A DNA stretch of 45,218 bases from Draconibacterium sp. Its GTDB lineage: Bacteria > Bacteroidota > Bacteroidia > Bacteroidales > Prolixibacteraceae. A model generated the notes under the pieces. The model searched no databases and was not told the origin of the DNA. It saw nothing but the letters and a program-made list of their open reading frames with translations. The position numbers were made by a program, and so were the translations under genes. This document shows, piece after piece, positions 7,729 to 23,128 of this stretch; the first letter of the stretch is position 1; each line of letters opens with the position of its first letter. Where the stretch lies: NCBI GenBank assembly GCA_011620585.1, contig WOYV01000034.1:1-45218 (forward strand). Reading direction: 5' to 3'.

Positions 7729-10140
7729 CTATTTCTTTCTCAATCGTAATGCATTTGAAATCACTGAAACAGAGCTAAAACTCATGGCCGTTGCAGCAAT
7801 CAAAGGGCTCAGCAGAACGCCGAAAAACGGGAACAGTATTCCTGCGGCAACGGGCACACCCAGTGAGTTGTATACAAAAGCAAAAAACAGGTTTTGTTTA
7901 ATGTTAATCATCACTTTATGACTTAATTCACGGGCCCTGACAATACCGTTCAGGTCGCCTTTTACCAGCGTAATTTCGGCGCTTTGCATAGCAATATCAG
8001 TTCCTGTCCCCATGGCAATCCCGATGTTGGCCTGGGTAAGCGCAGGGGCATCGTTAATTCCGTCGCCGGCCATGGCCACAACATGACCCTGTTCCTGCAG
8101 TTCCTTTACTTTTTTGTATTTATCGTCGGGCAGGCAATCGGCTACAAATCCGTCGAGGTGCAACTCGTCGGCCACCGCTTTGGCGGTAAACTTATTATCA
8201 CCGGTAAGCATGTGTACTTTTATACCCAACCTTTGGAGTTCTTTAATGGCTTTTGCTGATGTTGGTTTGATGGTGTCGGCCACGCTAACTATTCCTTCCA
8301 CTGTATTCCCTGAAACCAGGTACATTACTGTTTGTCCGGTAGACTGCCAGTCCTGCGCTTCTTTTTGTGCTTCCCCGTTAATGCTGGCTCCAAAATCTTC
8401 CAACAAACGGTGGTTTCCCAGTCCTGTTTTTTGTTTCCGGTAAACTGCCTGTACGCCTTTCCCCGTTACCGACTCAAAACTTTCCAATTTTTCAAGTTGA
8501 ATATTTTTTTCTTTGGCGCCTTTCACAATGGCGTCGGCAATGGGGTGTTCGCTGTTGGCATCGATGGAAGCTGCCAGTTTCAGCACCTCTTCATCGCTCA
8601 TTTTGCCAAACGATTTGTAGTTTTTCAGCGAAGGTTTTCCCTCGGTAATGGTGCCGGTTTTATCAATGATCAGTGTGTCCACCTTGTTCATTTCCTCAAT
8701 GGCGCGGGCATCTTTTACCAACACACCCGACTGTGCCATTCTTCCAGAGCCCACCATAATCGACATGGGCGTAGCCAGTCCGAGTGCACACGGACAAGCA
8801 ACAATCAGCACGGCAATAGCATTTACAAAAGCATAAACATAAGCCGGTTCAGGCCCCCAAATTGCCCAGACGATAAATGTAAGAATGGAAATACTTACCA
8901 CAATCTGGACAAAATATTTGGCCACCACATCGGCCATCTTCTGAATGGGCGCTCGTGAGCGACTGGCTTCATTTACCATTTCCACAATTTGTGACAGCAA
9001 GGTGTCAGACCCCACTTTCTCAGCCTTCATTTCGAAAGCGGTTTTGCCGTTAATCGTTCCTCCTGTTACTTTATCGTCCACTGCTTTATCTGCCGGAATG
9101 GGTTCCCCGGTAATCATGCTTTCATCGATCACTGCATTTCCTTCGGTTATCACCCCGTCGACCGGTATTTTTTCGCCCGGTTTTACTTTCAGGATGTCGC
9201 CTTCGGTTACTTCTTCCAGCGGAATTTCCACCTCTTCCCCGTTGCGGATTACCCTTGCAATTGGAGGGACAAGCCCAAGCAAGGCTTTTATGGCGGAGTT
9301 GGTTTTGCTGTGTGCGCGCAACTCGAGTACCTGTCCGAGCAGTACCAGTGTTAATATTACGGCTGCTGCTTCAAAATACACATGTACATTTCCCTGATTA
9401 TCTTTAAACTGTGCCGGGAAAACATCTGGTATCAGCATGGCCAACACACTAAAAATGTAAGCCGCCCCCACGCCGATGGAAATAAGTGTCCACATATTTG
9501 GGCTGCGGCGCCGGACGGAACTCCATCCGCGTTTGAAAAAGTCCAGGCCTGCGTAAAATACAACCGGCGAAGCCAAAGCAAATTCAATCCAGCCCCATAC
9601 TTTTTTTGAAGCAAGGTTCTCAAGGTTTAATCCAAACACATCAGACATGGCGATGATAAACACAGGGACGCTTAAAGCCACTGCCAGCCAGAATTTCCGA
9701 AGCATTTTTTTATAGGCTTTTTCTTCTTCGCTTAAAACTTCACCCTTTTCAGGTACAAGATCCATCCCGCACTTGGGACAGCTTCCCGGGTGGTCTTGTT
9801 TGATTTCAGGATGCATCGGGCAGGTGTAAATGGTTTTGCTTTTTGCTGCCGTGCTTTCTTCTTTATTCAGGTGCATGCCACACACCGGGCAATCGCCGGG
9901 TTCGCCATACATCTTGTCGCCTTCGCAACGCATGGGACAGAAATATTTTCCCTTGCTTCCGGAACTGGTAGTTTCTTTATGTTGATGGTGTCCGTGATGG
10001 TGGTGATGCCCGTTGGTTTTTTGAATTTCTTCATCCACAGGAATCAAATGCATGTTACACACCGGGCAGTCGCCGGGTTCATCGTATGTTTTTTCGCCCT
10101 CACATTTCATGGGGCAGTAGTATTTTTTTTCTGTAGTCAT
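7729..10140 (-). CDS. copA: Copper-exporting P1B-type ATPase with three N-terminal heavy-metal-binding motifs
   Basis: P1B-1 ATPase of 803 residues that pumps Cu(I)/Ag(I) from the cytosol to the periplasm. Instead of CxxC HMA domains the N-terminus carries three short CPM...GDCPxCxM-type modules: residues 7-32 (C9, C13, C25, C28), 66-90 (C68, C72, C84, C87) and 105-130 (C107, C121, C124). A His stretch (HHHHHGHHQH) lies between the first two. The pump core is complete: TGEP at 344-347, the transmembrane CPC at 449-451, the phosphorylation site DKTGT with D493, SEHP at 530-533, and GDGINDAP. It follows the SHOCT gene by 24 bases, and the two probably share the promoter at 10454-10490. Copper/silver is assigned from CPC and context; substrate preference is otherwise inferred. 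Confidence 0.96.
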   Translation of the reverse strand: MTTEKKYYCPMKCEGEKTYDEPGDCPVCNMHLIPVDEEIQKTNGHHHHHGHHQHKETTSSGSKGKYFCPMRCEGDKMYGEPGDCPVCGMHLNKEESTAAKSKTIYTCPMHPEIKQDHPGSCPKCGMDLVPEKGEVLSEEEKAYKKMLRKFWLAVALSVPVFIIAMSDVFGLNLENLASKKVWGWIEFALASPVVFYAGLDFFKRGWSSVRRRSPNMWTLISIGVGAAYIFSVLAMLIPDVFPAQFKDNQGNVHVYFEAAAVILTLVLLGQVLELRAHSKTNSAIKALLGLVPPIARVIRNGEEVEIPLEEVTEGDILKVKPGEKIPVDGVITEGNAVIDESMITGEPIPADKAVDDKVTGGTINGKTAFEMKAEKVGSDTLLSQIVEMVNEASRSRAPIQKMADVVAKYFVQIVVSISILTFIVWAIWGPEPAYVYAFVNAIAVLIVACPCALGLATPMSIMVGSGRMAQSGVLVKDARAIEEMNKVDTLIIDKTGTITEGKPSLKNYKSFGKMSDEEVLKLAASIDANSEHPIADAIVKGAKEKNIQLEKLESFESVTGKGVQAVYRKQKTGLGNHRLLEDFGASINGEAQKEAQDWQSTGQTVMYLVSGNTVEGIVSVADTIKPTSAKAIKELQRLGIKVHMLTGDNKFTAKAVADELHLDGFVADCLPDDKYKKVKELQEQGHVVAMAGDGINDAPALTQANIGIAMGTGTDIAMQSAEITLVKGDLNGIVRARELSHKVMINIKQNLFFAFVYNSLGVPVAAGILFPFFGVLLSPLIAATAMSFSSVSVISNALRLRKK

Positions 10141-10164: not shown

Positions 10165-10419
10165 TTAAAACAAGGAGAGAACGTGTTTTTTTTCTTCAAA
10201 CTCTTCTTTGTTAATCTCACCCCGGGCATATCGTTCTTTCAATATGTCGAGAGCGGATTTTTTTTCTGTTGGAGTGGCGTTTTGGCCGGTATTAATTCCT
10301 CTGGTAACTGCCCAGATAATAACTATCAAAACTACAATTCCGAGTATCCAGGCAAGGCCCATTCCCCAGCCCATTCCGTGTATTCCATTCATTCCAGATC
10401 CATATAATCCGTACATCAT
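10165..10419 (-). CDS. SHOCT-domain small membrane protein
   Basis: Protein of 84 residues with a Gly/Met-rich N-terminus ([21 protein letters not shown]), one membrane segment at about 22-43, and a C-terminal SHOCT helix pair ([23 protein letters not shown]). SHOCT domains are short oligomerisation or tethering modules; a copy next to a copper ATPase is common in Bacteroidota. The Met/His/Gly head could bind Cu(I) on the periplasmic side. Unusually for this phylum, a perfect AAAGGAGG lies six bases before the first of two consecutive ATG codons. copA starts 24 bases downstream, so the two genes are almost certainly co-transcribed. Confidence 0.82.
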
Positions 10420-10522: not shown

Positions 10523-11083
10523 TTACACATCGTTTAACGATTTGCGCTTTTCTTCTCCGAGTTTCTTGAAATAGGAAGGCGTAAATCCGGTCACTTTTTT
10601 AAACTGGCCTGATAAATGGGCCACGCTGCTGTAACCCAGTTCCCAGGCGATTTCGCTTAATGTTTTTTCGTCGTACACCAGCAATTCTTTTACACGTTCG
10701 ATTTTCAGGTTAATCAGGTGTTTCTCAATGGTGGTGCCTTCAACCGATGAAAAAAGTGAACTCAGGTAGGGATAATCCAGGTTCAGTTTGTTGGTGAGGT
10801 AGTCTGAAAAGTTCATTTCATTTTCCCCGTTGTGCTGATAAATATAATCGATAGAAATGGTCTTGATCTCTTCAATAATCCTGCTCTTTGAACCGTGAAT
10901 GATTTCAAAACCCACTTTTTTTAACTTCTCGCTGATATGCTCCAGTTTTTCCGGTTCAATTTCTTTCGAAGTTTTCACCTTGCCTAACTGAATATGTTCG
11001 ACTTTAATTCCTTCGTTATCGAATATTTGCGAAACCGCCATGATACAACGGTTACAAACCATATTTTTGATGTTGATATCCAT
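10523..11083 (-). CDS. HMA-AraC fusion transcriptional regulator (copy 1)
   Basis: Protein of 186 residues. The first 68 or so form an HMA-like metal-binding domain opening with KNMVCNRC (C10, C13). The C-terminal half is an AraC/XylS double helix-turn-helix with LSEIAWELGYSSVAHLSGQF and FKKVTGFTPSYFKK. The likely role is a Cu(I)- or thiol-responsive activator of the flanking efflux genes, the metal being bound by the N-terminal CxxC as in CopZ. It starts 16 bases after the PII-like gene and is probably co-transcribed with it. It is a clear paralogue of the protein at 20292-20870, from the KNMVC.RC motif to the helix-turn-helix. No effector is known from the sequence; zinc or a redox signal is also possible. 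Confidence 0.85.
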   Translation of the reverse strand: MDINIKNMVCNRCIMAVSQIFDNEGIKVEHIQLGKVKTSKEIEPEKLEHISEKLKKVGFEIIHGSKSRIIEEIKTISIDYIYQHNGENEMNFSDYLTNKLNLDYPYLSSLFSSVEGTTIEKHLINLKIERVKELLVYDEKTLSEIAWELGYSSVAHLSGQFKKVTGFTPSYFKKLGEEKRKSLNDV

Positions 11084-11098: not shown

Positions 11099-11440
11099 TT
11101 ATACTACCATTATCCCTTGTTCATCGGTGCGTACTTTATACACTTCATCCACCGGCGAAACGATGATCATTCCGTCACCCCGGTACCCGGTGCGGCCGTG
11201 CTGACGGATGAGTTTTACCACCGGTTCCACATGTTCTTCGGCTACCAGTATTTCGAGTTTAACTACCCGGTAAGCATCTGCAAAAGGATACTTGTTACTG
11301 ATGTGTTCTTTTTCGTGATCGGAATACTGCCCTGTACCTTCACACTCCACAAAAGTCATGCAGCAGTAACCCTCTTTTTTCAGGGCGTTGTGTACATCTT
11401 CTGTCATCCGGTGTCGTATGTAAGCTTTTATTAGTTTCAT
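11099..11440 (-). CDS. PII-like signalling protein linked to metal efflux
   Basis: Protein of 113 residues with the GlnB/PII fold. The N-terminal strand MKLIKAYIRHRMTEDVHNALKK, the strand VVKLEILVAEEHVEPVVKLI, and the C-terminal signature TGYRGDGMIIVSPVDEVYKVRT (the TGxxGDG nucleotide loop) are all visible. The T-loop region (about 36-58) differs from nitrogen-type PII: it is rich in His, Asp and Glu and has no obvious counterpart of the uridylylated Tyr51. A PII subgroup (PII-NG) has been described as linked to CusABC-type efflux genes, and this copy fits it by context. It may bind a nucleotide and possibly a metal to modulate the pump. It lies between a terminator hairpin and the HMA-AraC gene. 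Confidence 0.83.
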   Translation of the reverse strand: MKLIKAYIRHRMTEDVHNALKKEGYCCMTFVECEGTGQYSDHEKEHISNKYPFADAYRVVKLEILVAEEHVEPVVKLIRQHGRTGYRGDGMIIVSPVDEVYKVRTDEQGIMVV

Positions 11441-11844: not shown

Positions 11845-12375
11845 TTATCGACTTTTTTCTCCTTGAAAGTCAAGCATGTATTGGTTGTCTCCATCTGTCG
11901 TTTGAAAGCGGTAACCAAACGTATGGTTCATCATATCGAATCCTCCAAAGTGTTCATCTTCCAGCTGGTGTTCGTCACTAAGGTGATGCTGCCAGGGGGT
12001 TTCCCCGTTTTGAATGTCACCCATCATGCCGCCGCCCATGTGACCCTGGCCCATCATATGCCCGTACATTTCCTCAAAGGCGTTGCCGGTTAAGCAGACC
12101 ATCACACTGTCGTTGTTGTTGTAGTAATTGAGCATGAAAGTGGTATCCAGTTCATCGCCGTAACAGTGGACTTCAATCAATCCATCGCTGGTTTTTGAAA
12201 TATCGGCAGTAGCATTGCTGGTGCCGATAATTGTACCGGTGGCACTTTTATTTGTCAAAATACCGGAGTAAGTTCCTTCGATTGAATTATCAATTGGTTC
12301 ATCTGTTTTATTACAAGCAGCCAATCCAATTATTATGGCCACTACTAGAAATAACTTTGTTCTTGTTTTCATCAT
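11845..12375 (-). CDS. Met/His-rich periplasmic lipoprotein
   Basis: Protein of 176 residues from the MMKTRTK start. This start gives a proper lipoprotein signal with an LAAC lipobox (Cys at residue 21), unlike the frame opening at 12405. After the signal comes a beta-rich region (EGTYSGILTNKSATGT, TADISKTSDGLIEVHCYG, TFMLNYY), then a Met/His/Gly cluster (YGHMMGQGHMGGGMMGD) and another His-rich stretch. Clusters of this kind bind Cu(I) and Cu(II). The gene follows cusB by 60 bases on the same strand and is likely part of the operon. It could be a periplasmic copper sponge or a donor to CusB. The fold is not recognised beyond this. Confidence 0.75.
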   Translation of the reverse strand: MMKTRTKLFLVVAIIIGLAACNKTDEPIDNSIEGTYSGILTNKSATGTIIGTSNATADISKTSDGLIEVHCYGDELDTTFMLNYYNNNDSVMVCLTGNAFEEMYGHMMGQGHMGGGMMGDIQNGETPWQHHLSDEHQLEDEHFGGFDMMNHTFGYRFQTTDGDNQYMLDFQGEKSR

Positions 12376-12435
12376 TTTATGATTTAAAATTTTAAATAAC
12401 CTCAAGGTGTCGAAGCTCTTTTTTACAAGTCTCTT

Positions 12436-14229
12436 TTATTTTATCGAATCTTTGTTTTCCCCACAATTCAGCATCATATCTCCGAAATAAGGATTCCGGA
12501 TTTCCTCTGTTTCACTGATCCAGTAAGCGCCCTTATTATCAAAAGCCATCGGGCAGAACTGGTAATACGCCGTCTCATTTTCTAAACCAAACATTTTCAG
12601 ACTTTTGTAAAAAGCATTATTAAATTTTGAAAATGCTTCCCGTTGTTTTTCAATATCGCTTTCAGAACGAATTGCCTTTATTGAACTGTTCAGGGTTTTT
12701 AGCTGGTTCATCCAGGCCATATGAGCGTCGTCCTTCAGCAATTCCATATCAACTGCCTGGATAGCTGATTCAACTTTCTTTGCCTCCTCGTTCACTTTTC
12801 CAGGATCGGATTCCACAAAAGCATCTTTCATTTTGATGTAAGTATCGTAAACGCTTGTTAGCTGGGCTTTAAACTTCGGATTAGTTTCAACGGGTTCTGC
12901 TTTTGCTTCCGAACTTGTTGTTGTTTCGCCACTCATATCCATTCCGGGCATACTTCCCGAAGATAATTTTTCGCCGGACTGGTTCATCATACTTGTTTTT
13001 CCTGCCAACTGGGCAGCTGCATCCACACTAAAAGTTCCGTTCGTCACAATTTCTTCACCTTCCTTTAGTCCTTCAACTACAACATAAGTATCTTTCGTGG
13101 AGGCACCCAGCGTAATTTCACGCATTTTAAACGAAGGCTTTTCTGCCCCCGGAATTTTCACATAAACTACCGATCGTGTTCCGGTCCATAAAACAGCCGT
13201 TTGTGGAATAGTCAGTTGTTCGCCACCGGCTTTTAACACCGAATGAACCGTTCCGTTGATAAACATTTCAGGTTTCAATTCCAGGCCCGGATTTGGCAAT
13301 TCTATCCTCACTTTAACAACCCTTGTGTTGGGATCAACAAGCGGGTCGATAAATGAAATTTTCCCTTTAAATGTTTTTCCGGGAATTGCCTGAGTTGTAA
13401 ATTCTACCTGCTGATTTAATGAAATCCATGCCAGGTCTGATTCGTAAGCATCAAAAACGCCCCAAACTTTTGATAAATCGGTTACATCGAACAAAACCGC
13501 ACCTTTTGAAATATAATCTCCTTTGTTTACTTTCAGGTTCACAACAATTCCTGAAGTGTTGGCATAAATGTCGAAGGTTGAAGTTACGTTCCCCGATTTT
13601 TCAAGTGCATTGATTTGTTCGTCAGAAAGTTTCCAGTTGCGCAGTTTTTCGCGGGCGGCTTCCACTAATGCCGGGTATTTATCTTTTAACGAAAGCGCTT
13701 CAAGCAGTTCTTTTTGTGCAGTTACCAGCTCGGGCGAATAGATTCTGGCAATCAGTTGTCCTTTTTTAACCTGTTGGCCGGTAACATTAACCATCAGTTC
13801 CTCAAGACGGCCTGGAACATGCGCCGTTTGCGATTGTTTCAGCCGTTCATCAACCTGTATTTTCCCGTATAAAAGAATGTTTTTTGATGATGAACCTTTA
13901 GCAACCACTGCGGTTTGTACCTCCGCCAGTTTCATGGCCGACTCACTAATCTGAATTGCCTGGTCGTCAATTTCAACATCCGAATTTTTAAGCGGAATTA
14001 AATCCATTCCGCAAATCGGGCAATCACCCGGTTCGTCCATTCTTATTTGCGGATGCATCGAACAGGTCCAGATGGTATGTTCTTCTTCTGAATGTTCATG
14101 AACTTCGGGTTCTGTTGTTTTTACTGTTGTTTCTGAATGGTGAAAAACCAACCAACCGAGAAATAGTCCCGCGATAACCAGTAATGCGGCTTTTACATAT
14201 GTATTTGATAATAAATCTTTTGCTTTCAT
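12436..14229 (-). CDS. cusB: CusB-type periplasmic adaptor with N-terminal metal-binding motif and C-terminal DUF3347
   Basis: Membrane-fusion protein of 597 residues linking the CusA-type pump to its outer-membrane channel. Order: membrane anchor (about 12-30), heavy-metal-binding module WTCSMHPQIRMDEPGDCPIC (C56, C70, C73), the adaptor core with its lipoyl/hairpin/beta-barrel parts (about 90-400, e.g. YANTSGIVVNLKVNKGDYI), a Met-rich linker (about 413-433, SMPGMDM), and a C-terminal DUF3347 domain (about 452-590) with FCPMAFDNKGAYW and GDMMLNCG (C559, C589). E. coli CusB is much shorter (about 400 residues), so both ends add metal sites. The start lies one base after the TolC-type stop, so the genes are tightly coupled. 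Confidence 0.94.
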   Translation of the reverse strand: MKAKDLLSNTYVKAALLVIAGLFLGWLVFHHSETTVKTTEPEVHEHSEEEHTIWTCSMHPQIRMDEPGDCPICGMDLIPLKNSDVEIDDQAIQISESAMKLAEVQTAVVAKGSSSKNILLYGKIQVDERLKQSQTAHVPGRLEELMVNVTGQQVKKGQLIARIYSPELVTAQKELLEALSLKDKYPALVEAAREKLRNWKLSDEQINALEKSGNVTSTFDIYANTSGIVVNLKVNKGDYISKGAVLFDVTDLSKVWGVFDAYESDLAWISLNQQVEFTTQAIPGKTFKGKISFIDPLVDPNTRVVKVRIELPNPGLELKPEMFINGTVHSVLKAGGEQLTIPQTAVLWTGTRSVVYVKIPGAEKPSFKMREITLGASTKDTYVVVEGLKEGEEIVTNGTFSVDAAAQLAGKTSMMNQSGEKLSSGSMPGMDMSGETTTSSEAKAEPVETNPKFKAQLTSVYDTYIKMKDAFVESDPGKVNEEAKKVESAIQAVDMELLKDDAHMAWMNQLKTLNSSIKAIRSESDIEKQREAFSKFNNAFYKSLKMFGLENETAYYQFCPMAFDNKGAYWISETEEIRNPYFGDMMLNCGENKDSIK

Positions 14230-14230
14230 T

Positions 14231-15664
14231 TTAATTGATTTTTACTGAGTTCATTAATTTTTCAGCCAATGCAACCGAAGTATTATAATCGGTAATTGCC
14301 TCAACGTGTTTAAATCCGTAATCGAGGACTTTGTATTGCATCCGAACCACTTCTTCAAAACCGGCTCCTGTGTTGGCAAAATCAGAGAGGATTAAGTCGC
14401 GTGTTTTTTGGGCCAGCTCTTCCTGCTCTTTGTACAAGCCAATTCGTCTTTCAGCATCGTCAAGATTTTGAATAAAACTGCGGTACTGTACCTTCAGGTT
14501 ATTTTGTAAACTTATGGTTTGCTGTTTTGCGGCTTCCTGCATCAATTGTGCTTCTTTTTGCATGGCATCATATTTTTTGCGGTAAATCGGGATGGTAACT
14601 GAAACCATCGGCATTATCATGTCATTTCCATTCATCATGAATGTATTTCCTTCACGTTTTTGGTTAACCATATAATTCAGTCCCACACCAAGCATCGGAA
14701 GCCCCATTCGCTGAGCTTTTTGTTCCATCATTTCGTATGAAGAAACCTCGCTATTAAGCATCATCAGCATCGGATTGTTGGTGAGAATACTATCGGCAAT
14801 GGCCAGTTTTTTGGAAGGTAAGGGCTCAATTGCAAGCGAATCGCCGATTGTTACCGAAATATTCTGGTCGCGGTTGAGCAGCGAATTGAAAGCTATCTCC
14901 GTTGTTAAGCGCTGGTCTTTTAACAGCTCCAGTTTGTTTTGCTGTTCCAGTATCTCCATTTTAATGCGGAGAACATCCTGTAGCCCGGTTGCCGTATTTC
15001 CCATTCCTGTTGGCATTGAATTGGCTGGCATATTTGCCGTTGATGAAGTTGGTGTATTTTGTGAAGATGCCATTCCATTCATTTCACCTCCCGAAGCATT
15101 CATATTTCCGCTTGAAGCAGTACTCATGGCGCCGGAATTAGTTGAACTTGCCCCGGTTGTCGGCGACTGAAATTTTACCAGCGCAAGTTTTTCCAGCGAT
15201 TCAAGTAATTCTATGTTTTCTTTTACAAGAATGATTTCACGGTCGAGCTTCATTAACTGGTACCAGTTGGTTTTTACCTGGTAAAAGAGGTCAGCTTTGG
15301 CTGCATTAAAAACTTCATATTTGGCTTTTGCCATTTCAGATGCTTCATCTTTTGCTAATTGAAGTGTTCCAAACCATGGAAACATTTGCATCACCTGAAT
15401 ATTCCCGACCTGGTTGCCGCCCATGATTGCCATTGGTTTGATAAAAAAACCAAACGAGGCCTGCGGGTCGGGCAGCGTTCCAACCTGTGGAACTTTTTCG
15501 AGCGAAGCCAGGTATTGATTGAATGATGCTTTTAACCCGGGATTGTTTTTGGCCGCAAATACCAGCGCCGAATCAAGTGCAAATGTGCCAGCTTGCTGTG
15601 CAAAACCCCTTACGAAAGCCAGTATCAGGATGAGCGTTACAATATATATTTTTATATTCTTCAT
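14231..15664 (-). CDS. TolC-family outer-membrane channel with Met-rich insertion
   Basis: Outer-membrane efflux protein of 477 residues. The start at 15664 (MKNIKIYIVTL) gives a clean signal peptide ending FAQQ and lies just after the cusA stop; the upstream ATG at 15679 would overlap cusA. TolC-type coiled-coil repeats are visible (SALVFAAKNNPGLKASFNQY in the first half, DDAERRIGLYKEQEELAQ in the second). Between them, at about residues 175-230, is a low-complexity insertion rich in Ser, Asn, Gly and Met (MSTASSGNMNASGGEMNGM and on). It lies where the helices of the first half turn, so it may face the periplasmic adaptor and bind copper. It completes a tripartite CusCBA-like pump. Confidence 0.92.
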   Translation of the reverse strand: MKNIKIYIVTLILILAFVRGFAQQAGTFALDSALVFAAKNNPGLKASFNQYLASLEKVPQVGTLPDPQASFGFFIKPMAIMGGNQVGNIQVMQMFPWFGTLQLAKDEASEMAKAKYEVFNAAKADLFYQVKTNWYQLMKLDREIILVKENIELLESLEKLALVKFQSPTTGASSTNSGAMSTASSGNMNASGGEMNGMASSQNTPTSSTANMPANSMPTGMGNTATGLQDVLRIKMEILEQQNKLELLKDQRLTTEIAFNSLLNRDQNISVTIGDSLAIEPLPSKKLAIADSILTNNPMLMMLNSEVSSYEMMEQKAQRMGLPMLGVGLNYMVNQKREGNTFMMNGNDMIMPMVSVTIPIYRKKYDAMQKEAQLMQEAAKQQTISLQNNLKVQYRSFIQNLDDAERRIGLYKEQEELAQKTRDLILSDFANTGAGFEEVVRMQYKVLDYGFKHVEAITDYNTSVALAEKLMNSVKIN

Positions 15665-15668
15665 GACA

Positions 15669-18600
15669 TTAATTTTCAAGGATTACTGCTTTTGCCTGTT
15701 TCTTTACTTCGCCTTCGCGCCAGAAACATTGGAGAATCGGAACCACGAACATGGTCATAATCTGAATTACCATTCCCCCGAAAGTCGGAATGGCCATCGG
15801 GACCATAATATCGGAACCTTTTCCGGTGGAAGAAAGAACTGGCAGCAGCGCAATGATTGCCACTGCGGCAGTCATCATCGCCGGGCGAACCCGTTTTTTC
15901 CCGGCGATGATTACGGCTTCGCGAACTTCCTTAACCGTAGCGGGTTTCCGTTCTTCAAAAACCTGGTGGATGTAGGTTCCCATAATCACCCCGTCGTCGG
16001 TGGCAATACCAAAAAGCGCGATGAAGCCGACCCAAACTGCCACACTCAGGTTAATGGTATGAATCTGGAACAGGTGCCGCATATCGACTCCCGCTACTGA
16101 GAAGTTTAAAAACCAGGGCTGGCTGTATAACCACAGCATGATAAAACCCCCGGCAAATGCCACAAACACTCCGGAAAAGTGGATAGATGAGGCAGTAAAA
16201 GTTTTAAACTGAAAATAGAGAAGGAGGAAAACCAGCATCAGGCTAATTGGAATAACAATCGCCAAGCGTTTGGTGGCGCGCATTTGCTGTTCGTAGTTTC
16301 CTGCAAAAGCAAAACTTACTCCGGCAGGTAAAACCAGTTCTCCAGAGTCGATTTTGTCTTTCAGAAATTTCTGGGCTTCTTCTACCACATCCACTTCAGC
16401 TTTTCCGGCTATTTTATCAAAAATCACATAACCGTTCAGGTAGGTGTTTTCACTCCGGATCATTTGCGGCCCTTTTGTATATTCGATGTCCACAAGTTCG
16501 CCCAAAGGCACCTGCACACCGGTCATCGATGGCACCAGTATTTTTTTGATTTCTTCGGGCGTATTGCGCAGTTCGCGGGCGTAACGTACCCGAACAGGGA
16601 AACGTTCGCGACCTTCAACTGTGTTTGTAAGCGCCATTCCTCCAACTGCAACCTGTAGTATTTCCTGAACATCCTGCACTGTCATTCCGTAGCGGGCAAT
16701 CGCTTTCCTGTTTATTTTTATTTCGATATACGGAGCACCAACGGCGCGGTCGTAAAATACCGACGACGATTGAACCGATGGGATTTCCTTTAAAACCGAT
16801 TCGAGTTCAATCCCGGCTTTTTCGATGGTTTCCAAATCGGGGCCGTACACTTTTAATCCCATTGGCGCGCGCATTCCGGTAGATAACATTACCAACCTTG
16901 TTTCAATAGGCTGTAATTTTGGCGCCGAAGTTAACCCGGGAATATTGGTTACTTTAACAATTTCGTTCCAGATATCGTCGGGTGATTTTATTTCAGGCCG
17001 CCACTGCCGAAGGTTATCTCCATTTTTATCAGGAATCAATTCGTCCTGACTGATTTTCCGGAATCCGTCTTTTTCGGGATTGTATGTGGTTCCGTCTTTC
17101 AGTAAAAAACTTCCGTGTTTATCTACTTTAAACCCCATCCGGTGACCGTCTTCATCCAGAATATATTCGGGAACATAATTGATAGTGTTTTCGAACATTT
17201 GCACCGGCGCCGGGTCGAGAGCAGAATTGATGCGCCCCCATTTTCCGACAGCCAGTTCTACCTCGGGAATGGTTGACAAGCGTTTGTCGAGCAGTTCTAC
17301 ATATTGCTGGTTCATTTCTATCCCGGCATGCGGCATGCTGGTGGGCATCAGCAAAAACGAACCTTCGTCGAGTGCCGGCATAAATTCTTTACCAATTCCG
17401 GGGAATGTATTGTCGAATGTTTGCCAAACAGCTGTCTTTTTAATCGTTTCGGGCATAAAGCCAAAAAGGCGGTTGGTTCCCTGCCAGGCCAGAATGCCAA
17501 AAACAATTGTTGCAAGGGGCAAAGCCATAAAAGTCCATTTATTTTTTAAAGCCCATTTCAGAATTGGAACGTAAAAATGAACAATCAGTAAAAGAGCTCC
17601 CAATACCAATGCAATCAGAACGGCAACAAACAAATAATTGGAAACATTACTGTTTCGCGCCCCGAGCGGCAACCATTCAACAGTAAGATACCAAACTGCT
17701 ACCAGCAAAGTAATGGCGATGTTGATGTAGTTGGTCATTTCTTTTCGTTTTTCGGGCCAGCGCTTTTCAAACAGGTTGTTGAGCCCGATCAACACCAAAG
17801 CCAACGCAGGTATTTGTCCCCAGAAAATGGTAAACAGTATTCCTGCAGCTATTAAAATAGTATTGAAAATCCGGCTGACTCTTTTTTTGTCGAATTTGAT
17901 GGAAAAGATAATGTTGGCCAGTGTGGGCAATACAATGATTCCCAGCACAAAAGAGGCCAGCAGCGCAAATGTTTTTGTAAATGCCAGCGGACGGAACAGT
18001 TTTCCTTCGGCGGCCTGCATGGCAAAAACCGGAAGGAAACTTACAATAGTGGTTCCCAGTGCAGTGGTTATTGCCGACGATACTTCTACTGTGGCAGTAT
18101 ATATAACTGAAACAAGGTGTTTCCCTTTTGCGTTTTCATTTTCAGGCATTTCGAGATGCCGGATAATATTTTCGACAAACACAATCCCAACATCAACCAT
18201 TACACCAATGGCGATGGCAATCCCCGACAACGCTACAATATTCGCTTCTACACCCACCCATTTCATCATGATAAATGTCATGAGCACTGCAATAGGCAAT
18301 AACGAAGAAATCAGTACCGAAGCCCGAAGGTTCAAAACCAGGAAGATAATTACAATTATTGCGATGAGGATTTCGTGCGACAAAGCGGATTCAAGTGTTC
18401 CAATGGTTTCCTTTATTAAGCCGGTGCGGTCGTAAAAGGGCACAATGGTTACTTTTGAAACTGTTCCGTCGGCCAGGGTTTTTTGGGGTAAGCCGGGAGC
18501 AATTTCAGCAATTTTCTTTTTGACGTTGTTGATGACTTCCATTGGATTTGAACCGTAGCGTGCAACCACGGCAGCTCCTACCGCTTCAACACCGTCTTTG

Positions 18601-19484
18601 TCGAGTCCGCCACGACGGGGTGCCGGGCCAAAACTTACATGAGCCACATCGCTGATTCGAACCGGCACATTGTTGCGGACGCTTACAACGGCTTCCTTTA
18701 AATCATCGAGGTTTTTGATATAACCCAATCCGCGGATAACGTACTCTACTTTGTTTAGTTCGATGGTTTCAGCGCCAATATCGAGGTTGCTCTTTTTCAC
18801 GGCCTGCATAATGTCCATTACCGAAACGCCAAAAGCTTTCATGGCATTTGGGTCGATATCCACCTGGTATTCCTTTACAAAACCTCCGATGGTTGCCACT
18901 TCCGAAACCCCGTCGGATGCCGAAAGCGAATACTTGACATAGTAATCCTGAACGGTTCGCAATTCCTGCGGGTCCCAGCCGCCAGTTGGCTTTCCGGTTT
19001 TTGGGTCGCGACCTTCCAGCGTGTACCAGTAAATCTGTCCAAGCGCTGTGGCATCCGGGCCAAGTGTTGGTTGCACTCCCTGCGGCAAAGTACCGGAAGG
19101 CAGCGAGTTCAGTTTTTCGAGAATCCGCGAGCGGCTCCAGTAAAATTCGATGTTGTCTTCGAAAATGATGTAAATAAACGACATCCCAAACATGGAAGTG
19201 CTGCGGATGGTTTTTACCCCCGGAATTCCAAGCAGAGATGTGGTTAGCGGATAGGTAACCTGGTCTTCAATATCTTTGGGTGACCGGCCCATCCATTCGG
19301 TTGCCACAATTTGCTGGTTATCGCCAATGTCGGGAATGGCATCCACCGGAACGGGGTCACGCGGGAGCAGTCCGGTATGCCAGCTAAACGGCGCATAAAC
19401 AGTTCCGAGTAAAATGAAAACGACTAATAACAACATGGTTATTATCTTGTTTTCAAGGAAAAAACGAATGACTTTATTCAGCAT
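15669..19484 (-). CDS. cusA: CusA-type Cu(I)/Ag(I) RND efflux permease
   Basis: Inner-membrane proton-driven pump of 1271 residues that exports monovalent metal from cytosol or periplasm through the tripartite complex. The TM4 motif AIGVMVDVGIVFVEN (about 425-439, with D431 and E438) is the HME4 (Cu/Ag) type. Three methionines, M713 (LLMPTSMP), M763 (VQMFENTI) and M866 (VMLSTGM), fall in the same contexts as M573, M623 and M672 of E. coli CusA; the first two are 50 residues apart in both. It is about 220 residues longer than E. coli CusA. The extra is a block of about 140 residues near 530-690 with three or four more hydrophobic helices, and periplasmic loops around 775-830. It starts the core cusA-channel-cusB unit. 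Confidence 0.96.
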   Translation of the reverse strand: MLNKVIRFFLENKIITMLLLVVFILLGTVYAPFSWHTGLLPRDPVPVDAIPDIGDNQQIVATEWMGRSPKDIEDQVTYPLTTSLLGIPGVKTIRSTSMFGMSFIYIIFEDNIEFYWSRSRILEKLNSLPSGTLPQGVQPTLGPDATALGQIYWYTLEGRDPKTGKPTGGWDPQELRTVQDYYVKYSLSASDGVSEVATIGGFVKEYQVDIDPNAMKAFGVSVMDIMQAVKKSNLDIGAETIELNKVEYVIRGLGYIKNLDDLKEAVVSVRNNVPVRISDVAHVSFGPAPRRGGLDKDGVEAVGAAVVARYGSNPMEVINNVKKKIAEIAPGLPQKTLADGTVSKVTIVPFYDRTGLIKETIGTLESALSHEILIAIIVIIFLVLNLRASVLISSLLPIAVLMTFIMMKWVGVEANIVALSGIAIAIGVMVDVGIVFVENIIRHLEMPENENAKGKHLVSVIYTATVEVSSAITTALGTTIVSFLPVFAMQAAEGKLFRPLAFTKTFALLASFVLGIIVLPTLANIIFSIKFDKKRVSRIFNTILIAAGILFTIFWGQIPALALVLIGLNNLFEKRWPEKRKEMTNYINIAITLLVAVWYLTVEWLPLGARNSNVSNYLFVAVLIALVLGALLLIVHFYVPILKWALKNKWTFMALPLATIVFGILAWQGTNRLFGFMPETIKKTAVWQTFDNTFPGIGKEFMPALDEGSFLLMPTSMPHAGIEMNQQYVELLDKRLSTIPEVELAVGKWGRINSALDPAPVQMFENTINYVPEYILDEDGHRMGFKVDKHGSFLLKDGTTYNPEKDGFRKISQDELIPDKNGDNLRQWRPEIKSPDDIWNEIVKVTNIPGLTSAPKLQPIETRLVMLSTGMRAPMGLKVYGPDLETIEKAGIELESVLKEIPSVQSSSVFYDRAVGAPYIEIKINRKAIARYGMTVQDVQEILQVAVGGMALTNTVEGRERFPVRVRYARELRNTPEEIKKILVPSMTGVQVPLGELVDIEYTKGPQMIRSENTYLNGYVIFDKIAGKAEVDVVEEAQKFLKDKIDSGELVLPAGVSFAFAGNYEQQMRATKRLAIVIPISLMLVFLLLYFQFKTFTASSIHFSGVFVAFAGGFIMLWLYSQPWFLNFSVAGVDMRHLFQIHTINLSVAVWVGFIALFGIATDDGVIMGTYIHQVFEERKPATVKEVREAVIIAGKKRVRPAMMTAAVAIIALLPVLSSTGKGSDIMVPMAIPTFGGMVIQIMTMFVVPILQCFWREGEVKKQAKAVILEN

Positions 19485-19575: not shown

Positions 19576-19953
19576 TCATAAAAGATATACCTGTTTCAGG
19601 GAAAGTACAGTTTGAATATTTTTGGGCGGGGGAGAATAATCAATAAAAGAAGTTGTATTTTCTGATTCAGGTTCAGTCAGCAAACTTTCAATAGCAAGCA
19701 AATCATGACCTAAAACATCCAATTCTGCCAGAACCGGAACAGTAGTGATAACCGGCGAGGAAAAATCTTCTTTTACCTGGAAAAAATGATTTTCATTCTC
19801 ACAACAACCGGGCATGTCGCAACACGGATCGGCTTCGTGAAAAATCGATACAGACACAAACTCTCCCTGGCAATAATGTTTTGACACAGCCAAACCCATA
19901 CTCGATACGAGCAGCAAAATTGCAAAAATAATATGGCTGATTTTTCTTAACAT
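19576..19953 (-). CDS. HYC_CC_PP family small exported protein
   Basis: Protein of 125 residues with a signal peptide (about 1-22) and the three marks that give the family its name: KHYC at 25-28, two Cys pairs (PCCDMPGCCEN, C44/C45 and C50/C51), and a downstream SPPPKN. The six clustered cysteines and a nearby His suggest a periplasmic Cu(I) ligand. Proteins of this family are recurrent neighbours of Bacteroidota copper-efflux genes; function is not established. Here it is between the CopZ-like chaperone and cusA, all on one strand. Confidence 0.82.
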   Translation of the reverse strand: MLRKISHIIFAILLLVSSMGLAVSKHYCQGEFVSVSIFHEADPCCDMPGCCENENHFFQVKEDFSSPVITTVPVLAELDVLGHDLLAIESLLTEPESENTTSFIDYSPPPKNIQTVLSLKQVYLL

Positions 19954-20291: not shown

Positions 20292-20870
20292 TTATTTTCC
20301 AATGCTGTCAAGCGGTTTTCGTTCCTGGACTTTCAGCTTTTTAAATTGTCCGGGAGTCATTCCGGTTTCCTTTTTAAACTGAGAAGACAGATATGCCGAA
20401 CTGCTGTAACCCATTTGAATTGCGATTTCGCTCGCGGTAAGTTCATCGTACGAAAGCAGTTCTTTTACCCTCTCGATTTTTTGTTGAATAGTGTATTTTT
20501 CAATAGTCAGGCCAACCCGGGAAGAGAAAACATGGCTCAGGGCAGAGTAATCGATCCCCAGTTTTCTTGCCAGATGATCGGATAAATTTACGGTTGGATT
20601 TTCAAGTTCCTGATTTTGATGAATCCATAAGATAATCTCGGCTTTTGCCTGCTCCACAACCTGACTTTTTTTGTCGTGTAAAAGCTCAAATCCTCTGTTT
20701 TTGAGTTCAGCAGAAATAAGATCCAGTTGCGAATCGGATAGCGACTGGTCGATCTTGACCGTTCCAAGCATGATGGATTCAACCTGAAATCCATTATTTT
20801 CCATAATGGATTGTACCGTTTCGATACAACGCGGACAAACCATGTTTTTTATATGCAGAACAGTTGGCAC
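20292..20870 (-). CDS. HMA-AraC fusion transcriptional regulator (copy 2)
   Basis: Protein of 192 residues, paralogue of the one at 10523-11083. The N-terminal HMA-like domain has IKNMVCPRC (C12, C15) and the C-terminal AraC domain has ASEIAIQMGYSSSAYLSSQF and KKETGMTPGQFKK. The middle keeps a shared stretch (IERVKELLSYDE here, IERVKELLVYDE there). It heads the chaperone-HYC_CC_PP-cusA series, 89 bases before the next gene. Perfect direct repeats at its own promoter (20893-20919) suggest autoregulation. The likely role is sensing cytosolic Cu(I) by the CxxC pair and activating efflux. The exact metal is not shown by the sequence. Confidence 0.86.
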   Translation of the reverse strand: MPTVLHIKNMVCPRCIETVQSIMENNGFQVESIMLGTVKIDQSLSDSQLDLISAELKNRGFELLHDKKSQVVEQAKAEIILWIHQNQELENPTVNLSDHLARKLGIDYSALSHVFSSRVGLTIEKYTIQQKIERVKELLSYDELTASEIAIQMGYSSSAYLSSQFKKETGMTPGQFKKLKVQERKPLDSIGK

Positions 20871-20887: not shown

Positions 20888-20919
20888 CAAAAGTAAACAC
20901 TTTATAACGTAAACACTTT
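20888..20919 (-). promoter_or_regulatory. Promoter with 11-bp direct repeats before the second HMA-AraC gene
   Basis: On the minus strand AAAGTGTTTAC occurs twice (20909-20919 and 20893-20903), 16 bases apart start to start and identical. TACTTTTG, an exact TAnnTTTG element, occupies 20888-20895 and overlaps the proximal repeat by three bases. Direct repeats at the promoter are the usual binding pattern of AraC-type proteins. The start codon lies 17 bases downstream. Confidence 0.6.
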
Positions 20920-21124: not shown

Positions 21125-23128
21125 TCAATATCCCGACATCATGGAAGATATGCCACCTCCGTCGGTCACATTCGAAAATCCATGTCGACGTAAAACCTGT
21201 TGAGCGTAGGCTGAGCGTGCACCGGTTGCACAGTAAACAACGATTTCTCGATCCGTGTCTTCGCCCAAATCAATTTTCCCTGACATGATTTCATCCAGCG
21301 GAATGTTAATGGCATCGGGAAAGGCCCCACTCCTGAATTCGCCGGGTGTACGCACGTCAATAACCAAGCGCTTTAGTTCTTTTGCATTAACATTTTTGTT
21401 TGTTTCAGTTTCTTCCATCTCTTTTTCGCCTATCATTTTTTTCTCGATGGGCAGCGGAATCATCTGAATATTCCGGAATCCGTTCGTAATTGCAAAACGT
21501 TGCAGCGAGATGTTTCCTCCCGAAATGTTCATCACCTCTTTACAACCGGCCCCCATCAAAATACGGACAGCCTGATGGCCTTTTTTACCGGTTTCGTCGT
21601 AAACAAGTATTGGGATATCTTTTGGAATGCTCTCCAAGTTTGGTTGCAACTGTTCAAGAGGCAAGTGGTAGGCGCCGTTCATTTTGCTTTTTTGGTTGGC
21701 GAATAAATCGCGGATATCAAGAACGATAAGCTGTCCCTGTTCTTCGATGTAGCCGTCCAGCTCTGAAACCAGAATCGATGGGCCGTAACCCGACATTTTG
21801 TTTTCAGCAACGTAGGCAGCCATATTCATGGCATCGTTGGCAGTACCGATTGGCGGAGAATAAGCAAAATCGATGTCCGCAATTTCGCTAACAGTTAGTT
21901 TTGCAGCACAAGCTGTGGCAATAACATCTAAACGTTTATCGGCCCCTTTATAACCCGCTGTTTGTCCACCCAGAACAACGCCTGTTTGTTTATCGAATAC
22001 CAACATAACACTTACGTTTTCAGCTCCGGGATAGTACGACGTAAAAGCTTCTTTATGAACCACAACAGCATCGGCATCGATCCCCGCAGCACGGGCTTGT
22101 TTAAGCGAAAGCCCGGTTGTTCCGGCAACGGCATCAAAAACACGGACCACCGAAGTCCCAATCGAACCCTTGTAACGGTGATTTCCACCTAATGCATTTT
22201 CTGCGGCAATTCTTCCCTGTCGGTTGGCGGGCCCTGCCAATGGAATACGTACTTTTTTATCGCTTACACGGTGTTCTATTTCAACCATGTCGCCGGCAGC
22301 AAAAATGTCTGGGTCGGAGGTTTGCAAACGATCGTTAACCAGCAAGCCACCGGCTTCACCAATCTCAAGGCCTGCATTTATAGCCAGTTGCAAAGTCGGA
22401 CGAACACCTATCGAAAGCAGCACCATATCAGCATTTAATGTCTTCCCATTATCGAGGACAACTGAATCGGAACTGATTCGCACGACAGCAGTATTGGTAT
22501 GAACTCCAACTCCAAAAGCTTTTAATTCGCGGGTAATGAATCCGGCAGTTTCTGCTTCGAGGATGGCCATTACATGTTGCATTTTTTCTACTACATGAAC
22601 TTGAAGACCTCTTTTTACAAGCGCTTCTACCATTTCGAGGCCAATAAATCCGCCCCCAACAACTACTGCTGTTTTAGGCTTTTTGTTTTTCAGGTGGGCA
22701 TCAATTTTGTCCATATCTTCCAATGTCCACAAGCTAAAAACGTGGTCGGTATCTGCACCTGGCAATTCAGGGACAATCGGTCTTCCACCCTGAGCCAGAA
22801 TGAGTTTGGTGTATTCGAAAGATTTCTCTGCCCCACTGCGGGTATCGGTGGCGTGAACCGTTTTTTGTGCACGATCGATTGATTTTACCTGGGTGTGGAT
22901 ATGTACCGCTACCTGGTATTGTTCGTAAAAACTTTCAGGACTTTGAAGGATCAGTTTCGAACGGCTGTCGATATCACCGGCAATATAATAGGGCAGGCCG
23001 CAGTTGGCAAAAGAAATATCGGGACCGGCTTCCAGCATAGTAATTTGTGCACCGGGGGATAAGCGACGGGCTTTGGCTGCAGCAGTGGCTCCTGCTGCAA
23101 CACCACCAATTATTAAGATTTTTTCCAT
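21125..23128 (-). CDS. CoA-disulfide-reductase-like flavoprotein with two rhodanese domains
   Basis: FAD/NAD(P)H-dependent disulfide reductase of 667 residues. The FAD motif is GGVAAGATAA near the start. The single active-site Cys is C43 in SFANCGLPYY, as in CoA-disulfide reductase. A second nucleotide motif is VVVGGGFIGLE, and FAAGDMVE binds FAD. Two rhodanese domains follow. The first (about 455-555) has VYDETGKKG, with Asp where the catalytic Cys should be. The second (about 585-667) has VVYCATGARS with C633. Family members reduce CoA-disulfide, CoA-persulfide or polysulfide; one rhodanese domain is usual. The promoter has direct repeats, and the gene lies between two metal-efflux regions, so a role in thiol or persulfide homeostasis under metal stress is a reasonable inference. 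Confidence 0.9.
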   Translation of the reverse strand: MEKILIIGGVAAGATAAAKARRLSPGAQITMLEAGPDISFANCGLPYYIAGDIDSRSKLILQSPESFYEQYQVAVHIHTQVKSIDRAQKTVHATDTRSGAEKSFEYTKLILAQGGRPIVPELPGADTDHVFSLWTLEDMDKIDAHLKNKKPKTAVVVGGGFIGLEMVEALVKRGLQVHVVEKMQHVMAILEAETAGFITRELKAFGVGVHTNTAVVRISSDSVVLDNGKTLNADMVLLSIGVRPTLQLAINAGLEIGEAGGLLVNDRLQTSDPDIFAAGDMVEIEHRVSDKKVRIPLAGPANRQGRIAAENALGGNHRYKGSIGTSVVRVFDAVAGTTGLSLKQARAAGIDADAVVVHKEAFTSYYPGAENVSVMLVFDKQTGVVLGGQTAGYKGADKRLDVIATACAAKLTVSEIADIDFAYSPPIGTANDAMNMAAYVAENKMSGYGPSILVSELDGYIEEQGQLIVLDIRDLFANQKSKMNGAYHLPLEQLQPNLESIPKDIPILVYDETGKKGHQAVRILMGAGCKEVMNISGGNISLQRFAITNGFRNIQMIPLPIEKKMIGEKEMEETETNKNVNAKELKRLVIDVRTPGEFRSGAFPDAINIPLDEIMSGKIDLGEDTDREIVVYCATGARSAYAQQVLRRHGFSNVTDGGGISSMMSGY

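Follow-up and report, generated by a model that had tools for sequence, protein, structure and literature searches.

Bacteria and archaea possess several described copper sensors and metal-binding domains with which the protein reported here, the HMA-AraC regulator, can be compared. It resembles CueR (of the MerR family), CsoR and CopY in being a presumed one-component cytosolic copper sensor encoded beside export genes, but the folds of those proteins are unrelated to its own. Archaeal TRASH-domain copper regulators are likewise fusions of a small metal-binding domain with a helix-turn-helix (HTH), but HMA-AraC has a different metal domain, a different HTH and a bacterial host. With CopZ, Atx1 and the HMA domains of copper ATPases (PF00403) it shares the fold, the position of the CxxC and a profile relation, but it is fused to a DNA-binding domain, lies beyond the reach of the Pfam HMA model and carries the motif NMVCxRC where the usual HMA motif is GMxCxxC. 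Compared with AraC/XylS regulators (AraT, YesN, MarA, SoxS and Rns), it has an HMA-like N-terminus of about 65 residues where the longer proteins carry sensor domains. The preliminary description of this locus had named the cupin domain as the usual sensor of AraC proteins, which holds for only part of that family.

Searches of Bacteroidota with the standard copper-sensor models yield little. In a 2023 survey of marine bacteria, which used the same three sensor models as this study, only two-component and ECF-sigma homologues are reported for its few Bacteroidota (PMC10141476). For the flavobacterium Bizionia argentinensis, a genome study of 2024 describes homologues of MerR and CopY that lack copper sites and copA genes that, unlike those of other Gram-negatives, are not beside a chaperone and a regulator; it proposes instead two proteins of the ArsR type and a CusR-like pair, and the word AraC is absent from its text (PMC11213822). 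Searches of the open-licence PMC literature brought up no paper in which a description of an HMA-AraC regulator was recognised. The parts are known; as a candidate copper sensor of a whole phylum, their combination appears to be undescribed in the literature searched.

The window, that is the whole stretch of 45 218 nucleotides from Draconibacterium sp. that was analysed, contains an HMA-AraC gene and a set of copper-efflux genes on the same strand (Table 1). The domain make-up of the protein, the copper-efflux context of CxxC members of its family and the gene order in the same genus were established by computation, and we put at roughly three in four the probability that HMA-AraC is a one-component Cu(I) sensor and regulator of copper efflux acting through C12 and C15.

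Table 1. Positions of the HMA-AraC gene, its parts and the neighbouring genes in the window
Feature	Position	Strand	Basis or remark
CopA-type P1B ATPase	7729..10140	-	TIGR01511 above cut-off
SHOCT-domain protein between second HMA-AraC and CopA	10165..10419	-	Pfam SHOCT 3.2e-11
Second HMA-AraC copy, ahead of copA	10523..11083	-	51 % identical
P-II-like protein	11099..11440	-	Pfam P-II 2.9e-18
ORF without family name, between CusB-like and P-II-like genes	11845-12405	-	
RND periplasmic adaptor, CusB-like	12436..14229	-	TIGR01730 above cut-off
TolC-like outer-membrane channel (CusC position)	14231..15679	-	ORF; position
CusA/CzcA-type RND pump	15669..19484	-	TIGR00914 above cut-off
HYC_CC_PP family protein	19576..19953	-	NF047658 1.6e-15, above cut-off
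CopZ-like HMA protein, 71 aa	19987..20202	-	Pfam HMA 3.7e-9
HMA-AraC regulator	20292..20870	-	192 aa; ORF, Pfam, AlphaFold2, family profile
AraC-type DNA-binding region, residues 67-183	20322..20672	-	
HMA-like ferredoxin-fold domain, residues 1-65	20676..20870	-	AlphaFold2, family profile, Foldseek, VIA
CPRC, residues 12-15	20826..20837	-	ORF and member alignment
Direct repeat AAAGTGTTTAC-N5-AAAGTGTTTAC, 11 bp, candidate operator	20893..20919	-	copies 20893-20903 and 20909-20919, 16 bp apart

Read along the minus strand, the genes run in the order HMA-AraC, CopZ-like, HYC_CC_PP, CusA-type, TolC-like, CusB-like, ORF, P-II-like, second HMA-AraC, SHOCT and CopA, where the product of the TolC-like gene is tentatively named from its position and its apparent similarity. 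Seven relatives of the same genus, chosen for holding an HMA-AraC orthologue of 61–65 % identity, were compared with this arrangement. HMA-AraC headed HYC-CusA-CusC-CusB on one strand in all seven, and a second HMA-AraC stood before SHOCT and CopA in four of the seven, within the stretch fetched. CopZ was detected in five relatives, two of which (L212 and L216) had it more than 1 kb from HMA-AraC, and was not detected in the clusters of L213 and L214. The SHOCT protein was kept between the second HMA-AraC and CopA in those four relatives, and the P-II-like gene, which in the window lies just ahead of the second HMA-AraC and copA, was also found in L213 and L214 (two of seven). From 23505 onward on the plus strand (the region to 29068), the window presumably contains a second RND set.

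The HMA-AraC gene starts with GTG, and C12 and C15 lie inside NMVCPRC. An HTH_18 match at residues 100–178 (E 1.4e-17, above the Pfam cut-off) demonstrates the C-terminal AraC-type DNA-binding domain of the AraC/XylS family. Both cysteines were invariant across 80 aligned members, every one of which had been chosen as CxxC. The ORF, the HTH_18 match and the HMA profile agree with the preliminary description, which had placed a CxxC at the N-terminus and an AraC HTH at the C-terminus of one chain of 192 residues. The Pfam HMA model, however, was not matched by this protein at E≤0.1 or E≤1, nor by the second copy of the window at E≤0.1. The assignment therefore required further tests, since the earlier call had been an unproven reading of the motif. 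The curated cut-off of PF00403 is a detection rule and not a defining feature of the HMA domain.

A family profile built from 81 N-terminal domains of the CxxC type was searched against PDB sequences and gave 42 matches at E≤10, of which 41 were HMA-type by molecule name. The best were to ATP7B (8.9e-11), the copper ATPase 1p6t (5.6e-6) and CopZ 2qif (9e-5), and the HMA-type matches spanned copper ATPases, chaperones, ZntA and mercuric reductase; the only other match was to an aldo-keto reductase (E 0.25). Individually, 32 of 80 members matched Pfam HMA at E≤1, with a best value of 1.7e-6. An hhalign comparison, superseded by the search against the PDB, had aligned the N-terminal CxxC family with 41 CopZ-like sequences at a probability of 84 % (E 7e-6), as against 0.7 % for the 30 non-CxxC members.

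The AlphaFold2 model, computed from an 80-row alignment, had a mean pLDDT of 91.2 and a pTM of 0.81. The predicted order of elements was strand 3–8, helix 13–25, strands 30–34 and 37–40, helix 46–58 and a two-residue strand 62–63, which is a ferredoxin-like b-a-b-b-a-b fold, followed by helix 67–84, which opens the AraC fold. The CxxC is placed between strand 3–8 and helix 13–25, in the loop after the first strand. The structure prediction for which the preliminary description had called thus yielded a confident ferredoxin-like, HMA-like model of the N-terminal part and, together with the profile, upheld its view that this domain occupies the place of the sensor domain of longer AraC proteins. 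Judged by titles, the first non-AraC matches in Foldseek were CopZ (6ff2 and 2qif), then ATP7B, CsoZ, HAH1, Atx1 and GolB, with weak E-values (0.009 to 0.07) because the AraC part dominates the model. VIA-align gave scores of 8.5 for GolB, 8.3 for Atx1 and 7.8 for CopZ but also 8.5 for prephenate dehydratase, presumably through its ACT domain, and 8.1 for AcuB. These ties with non-HMA folds indicate that the fold alone says ferredoxin-like only, and the predicted HMA identity of the domain rests on the profile and the CxxC.

For the family, 153 distinct members were collected, with CxxC in 123, SxxC in 27 and another sequence in three. Copper genes were identified by BLAST with CopA, CusA, CusB, CopZ and HYC_CC_PP of the window, and one CxxC and one SxxC member with short flanks were left out of the flank-based counts. 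Of the 122 CxxC members with enough flank, 95 had a copper-export gene within 3 kb, whereas none of 26 SxxC members and none of the three others did; over all members, the proportions were 95 of 123 with CxxC versus 0 of 30 without. Within 6 kb, they were 92 of 114 for CxxC versus two of 26 for SxxC (both CopA-like) and none of three for the others. No copper gene of the BLAST set was found within 3 kb of 28 of the 123 CxxC members, which include a copy on contig C75 of the window's own genome. Since 80 named loci had been picked by similarity to a protein of the window, members from genome stretches were counted separately. In this sample (67 members on 60 stretches, taken roughly down the ranking of the phylum search with some rows skipped), a copper gene was near 32 of 39 CxxC members versus 0 of 28 without CxxC. 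For the window and the named loci, the next gene downstream of CxxC members matched Pfam HMA in 48 of 78 cases and E1-E2 ATPase in 31 of 78, one of 79 being left out as a family member. With a crude gene caller, 102 of 120 downstream genes shared the strand of the member that they follow, and 86 lay within 150 bp.

The genomic context of the family points to Cu(I). P-type ATPases within 3 kb carried MxxS, which we take as the signature of Cu(I)-type pumps, in 72 of 76 member–ATPase pairs (an ATPase beside two members being counted twice). DxG, taken in the same way as the Zn-type signature, was present in two pairs, and two frames of 499 and 521 residues had neither. These proportions argue against a protein that senses some other thiophilic metal (Zn, Cd, Hg or Ag), an explanation that draws on the occurrence of CxxC HMA domains in ZntA and mercuric reductase, both weak matches of the profile, and on the call of the window's RND pump, which is CusA/CzcA and not copper alone. 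A response to redox state through the CxxC is a variant of the same explanation, but copper-efflux genes would not be expected beside a disulfide switch, and we regard both forms as improbable. Copper-sensing systems often respond to silver, so silver is a possible signal alongside copper.

Members with SxxC mostly read KYMVSxRC where the others read NMVCxRC, and the second cysteine was invariant in the 27 aligned (for example, L010 10965–11519). Their neighbours on both sides included a response regulator in eight of 50 and a histidine kinase in seven of 50 (Pfam; 50 of 52 neighbours counted, two being left out as family members), and HMA was absent among the 25 of 35 Pfam families listed. 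The SxxC profile gave six matches in the PDB at E≤10, two of them to HMA proteins (E 0.17 and 0.41), and the probable HMA ancestry of SxxC members rests on their homology to CxxC members.

A quick phylogenetic tree was reconstructed for the 153 members, with SH-aLRT support only, the CxxC columns kept and a few long branches flagged. One branch of 119 rows (support 95) held the 95 copper-associated members and zero SxxC members, while a group of 33 rows (support 91) encompassed 29 of the 30 non-CxxC members together with four CxxC members and showed no copper context. A copy on contig C74 of the window's own genome, in which Ser replaces the first cysteine, fell between the two, and L009, L123 and L147 were placed near the base of the SxxC group. 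The state of the cysteine requires three changes on the tree. Two independent pairs were available on well-supported branches and no such pair differed in context, so that independence of the association between cysteine and copper was unsupported on this tree. Cysteine state and copper context shift together at one deep split, and the association is therefore not a set of many independent tests. A fair statement is that the copper-associated branch keeps CxxC throughout and that CxxC was lost once or a few times in its sister group, which has no copper context within 3 kb. L009 (7039–7599, the C75 copy of the own genome) has an intact CIRC and no copper gene of the BLAST set nearby, and by eye it adjoins an apparent radical SAM protein and a fatty-acid desaturase.

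The own genome has four members: the two copies of the window, the C75 copy and the C74 copy. Across the phylum of the window, the family was found in at least 71 of 148 genomes (80-member profile, E≤1e-25), a lower bound that pools CxxC and SxxC types, with at most 22 candidates scored per genome. A first phylum search (228 of 296, E≤1e-3) was dropped, as its matches include ordinary AraC proteins and no more than 11 candidates were scored for most genomes. In a scan of named contigs, the best 80 of 584 loci carried titles from many Bacteroidota groups and one from Rhodohalobacter. Among plasmids, 29 of 576 matching records covered at least 80 % of the query; of the 25 plasmid matches listed, which we take to be from Bacteroidota genera, 22 were annotated as AraC family or helix-turn-helix.

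None of the 148 genomes reached the cut-off of the CueR or CopY model. For the HMA-AraC protein itself, none of the 25 NCBIfam matches (E≤0.01) was to TIGR02044 (CueR), and no Pfam match at E≤0.1 was to PF02583 (CsoR). The own genome had no CsoR-family match and no CueR or CopY match above the cut-off; its best TIGR02044 score was 24.5 bits (cut-off 147.4), three CopY/BlaI-type matches fell below the cut-off (best 51.5 bits versus 121.95), and it also had MerR-type proteins below the cut-off. Another regulator is therefore possible, and the operon might answer to such a CopY- or MerR-type protein, with an HMA-like domain that no longer senses but aids folding or dimer formation. This could be read from the sister group with Ser for the first Cys as well, which keeps the domain with a copper gene within 3 kb in none of 26 cases, so that the fold can be of use even where the site is incomplete. 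However, no member of the 119-row copper branch has lost the CxxC, although the picking of loci favours CxxC, and we hold a non-sensing domain to be very improbable.

CsoR-family matches were present in 44 of 148 genomes and strong (E≤1e-15) in 37. The HMA-AraC family was found in one of the 37 and in six of the 44, a pattern that is confounded by ancestry because 30 of the 37 share one family code, f18. Fisher values for such overlaps, which take no account of ancestry, were set aside. Matches below the cut-off were of the CopY type in 77 and of the MerR type in 96 of 148 genomes. MerR matches of at least 99 bits occurred in 17 genomes, nine of which had the HMA-AraC family, which suggests that a CueR-like MerR protein may serve some lineages, and 33 of 148 genomes were without all three of the HMA-AraC family, strong CsoR and MerR of at least 99 bits. 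We see an even chance that Bacteroidota sense cytosolic Cu(I) mainly through HMA-AraC proteins, an undescribed class replacing CueR, CsoR and CopY in much of the phylum, and that the sister branch lost the first Cys and turned to other signals. If so, the way in which a major phylum of gut, soil and sea handles copper would become directly testable, and genes now named 'AraC family transcriptional regulator' could gain a function.

For the protein of the window, we infer Cu(I) binding, allostery, an operator and a sign of regulation as follows. When cytosolic Cu(I) rises, the HMA-like domain would bind it through C12 and C15. In the model, this domain runs straight into helix 67–84, the first helix of the AraC region, and through this continuity metal binding could alter how the AraC region is seated on its own promoter, which would stand ahead of the copper-efflux genes. 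In this way the regulator would control CopZ and the Cus-type tripartite pump, and the second copy would control CopA. Copper-induced expression, by activation or derepression, is favoured. By analogy with Cu-bridged chaperone dimers, which are known to exist, a bold extension is that Cu(I) bridging two HMA domains might drive dimer formation on DNA.

Alternatively, in line with the delivery by a CopZ-like partner that the preliminary description had suggested, the HMA-like domain may be a docking site that takes Cu(I) from holo-CopZ or from the metal domains of pumps by ligand exchange and so reads the loading of the chaperone instead of the buffered pool. It belongs to the same domain family as CopZ and the metal domains of copper ATPases, and in the window the gene that follows encodes CopZ. 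By BLAST with the window CopZ, which is weak for proteins of 70 residues, 42 of 122 CxxC members had a CopZ-like gene within 3 kb and most members had none; no CopZ was detected in the clusters of L213 and L214 either, and we hold docking to be unlikely. Under the favoured reading of a one-component Cu(I) sensor, CopZ is a possible but not a necessary Cu(I) donor, and direct binding from the buffered pool is as possible as delivery by CopZ.

The preliminary description had pointed to 20888–20919 as the DNA site. The direct repeat in this region is real: as good a repeat arose in one of 1000 shuffles of the upstream region, and the AAAGTGTTTAC pair is unique in the genome within three mismatches. 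The copy nearer the gene overlaps TACTTTTG (20888–20895), a putative core promoter that in our view resembles the Bacteroidota -7 element, the consensus of which is TAnnTTTG. Conservation, by contrast, did not hold. By eye, the AAAGTGTTTAC repeat was not seen in the seven same-genus promoters, and no common operator emerged when four groups of upstream regions were aligned. A scan for repeated 11-mers at spacings of 13–24 upstream of the 123 CxxC members found 11 of 11 identity in the window only, and such a repeat was also present upstream of one of 27 SxxC members. The AAAGTGTTTAC repeat remains a candidate operator. Several of the same-genus promoters share, again by eye, a GTTACTTT-like element in the corresponding position, which we likewise take to resemble the -7 element. 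On the other side of this promoter region, a large gene at 21125–23128(-), which is presumably FAD/rhodanese-like, adjoins HMA-AraC in six of the seven relatives.
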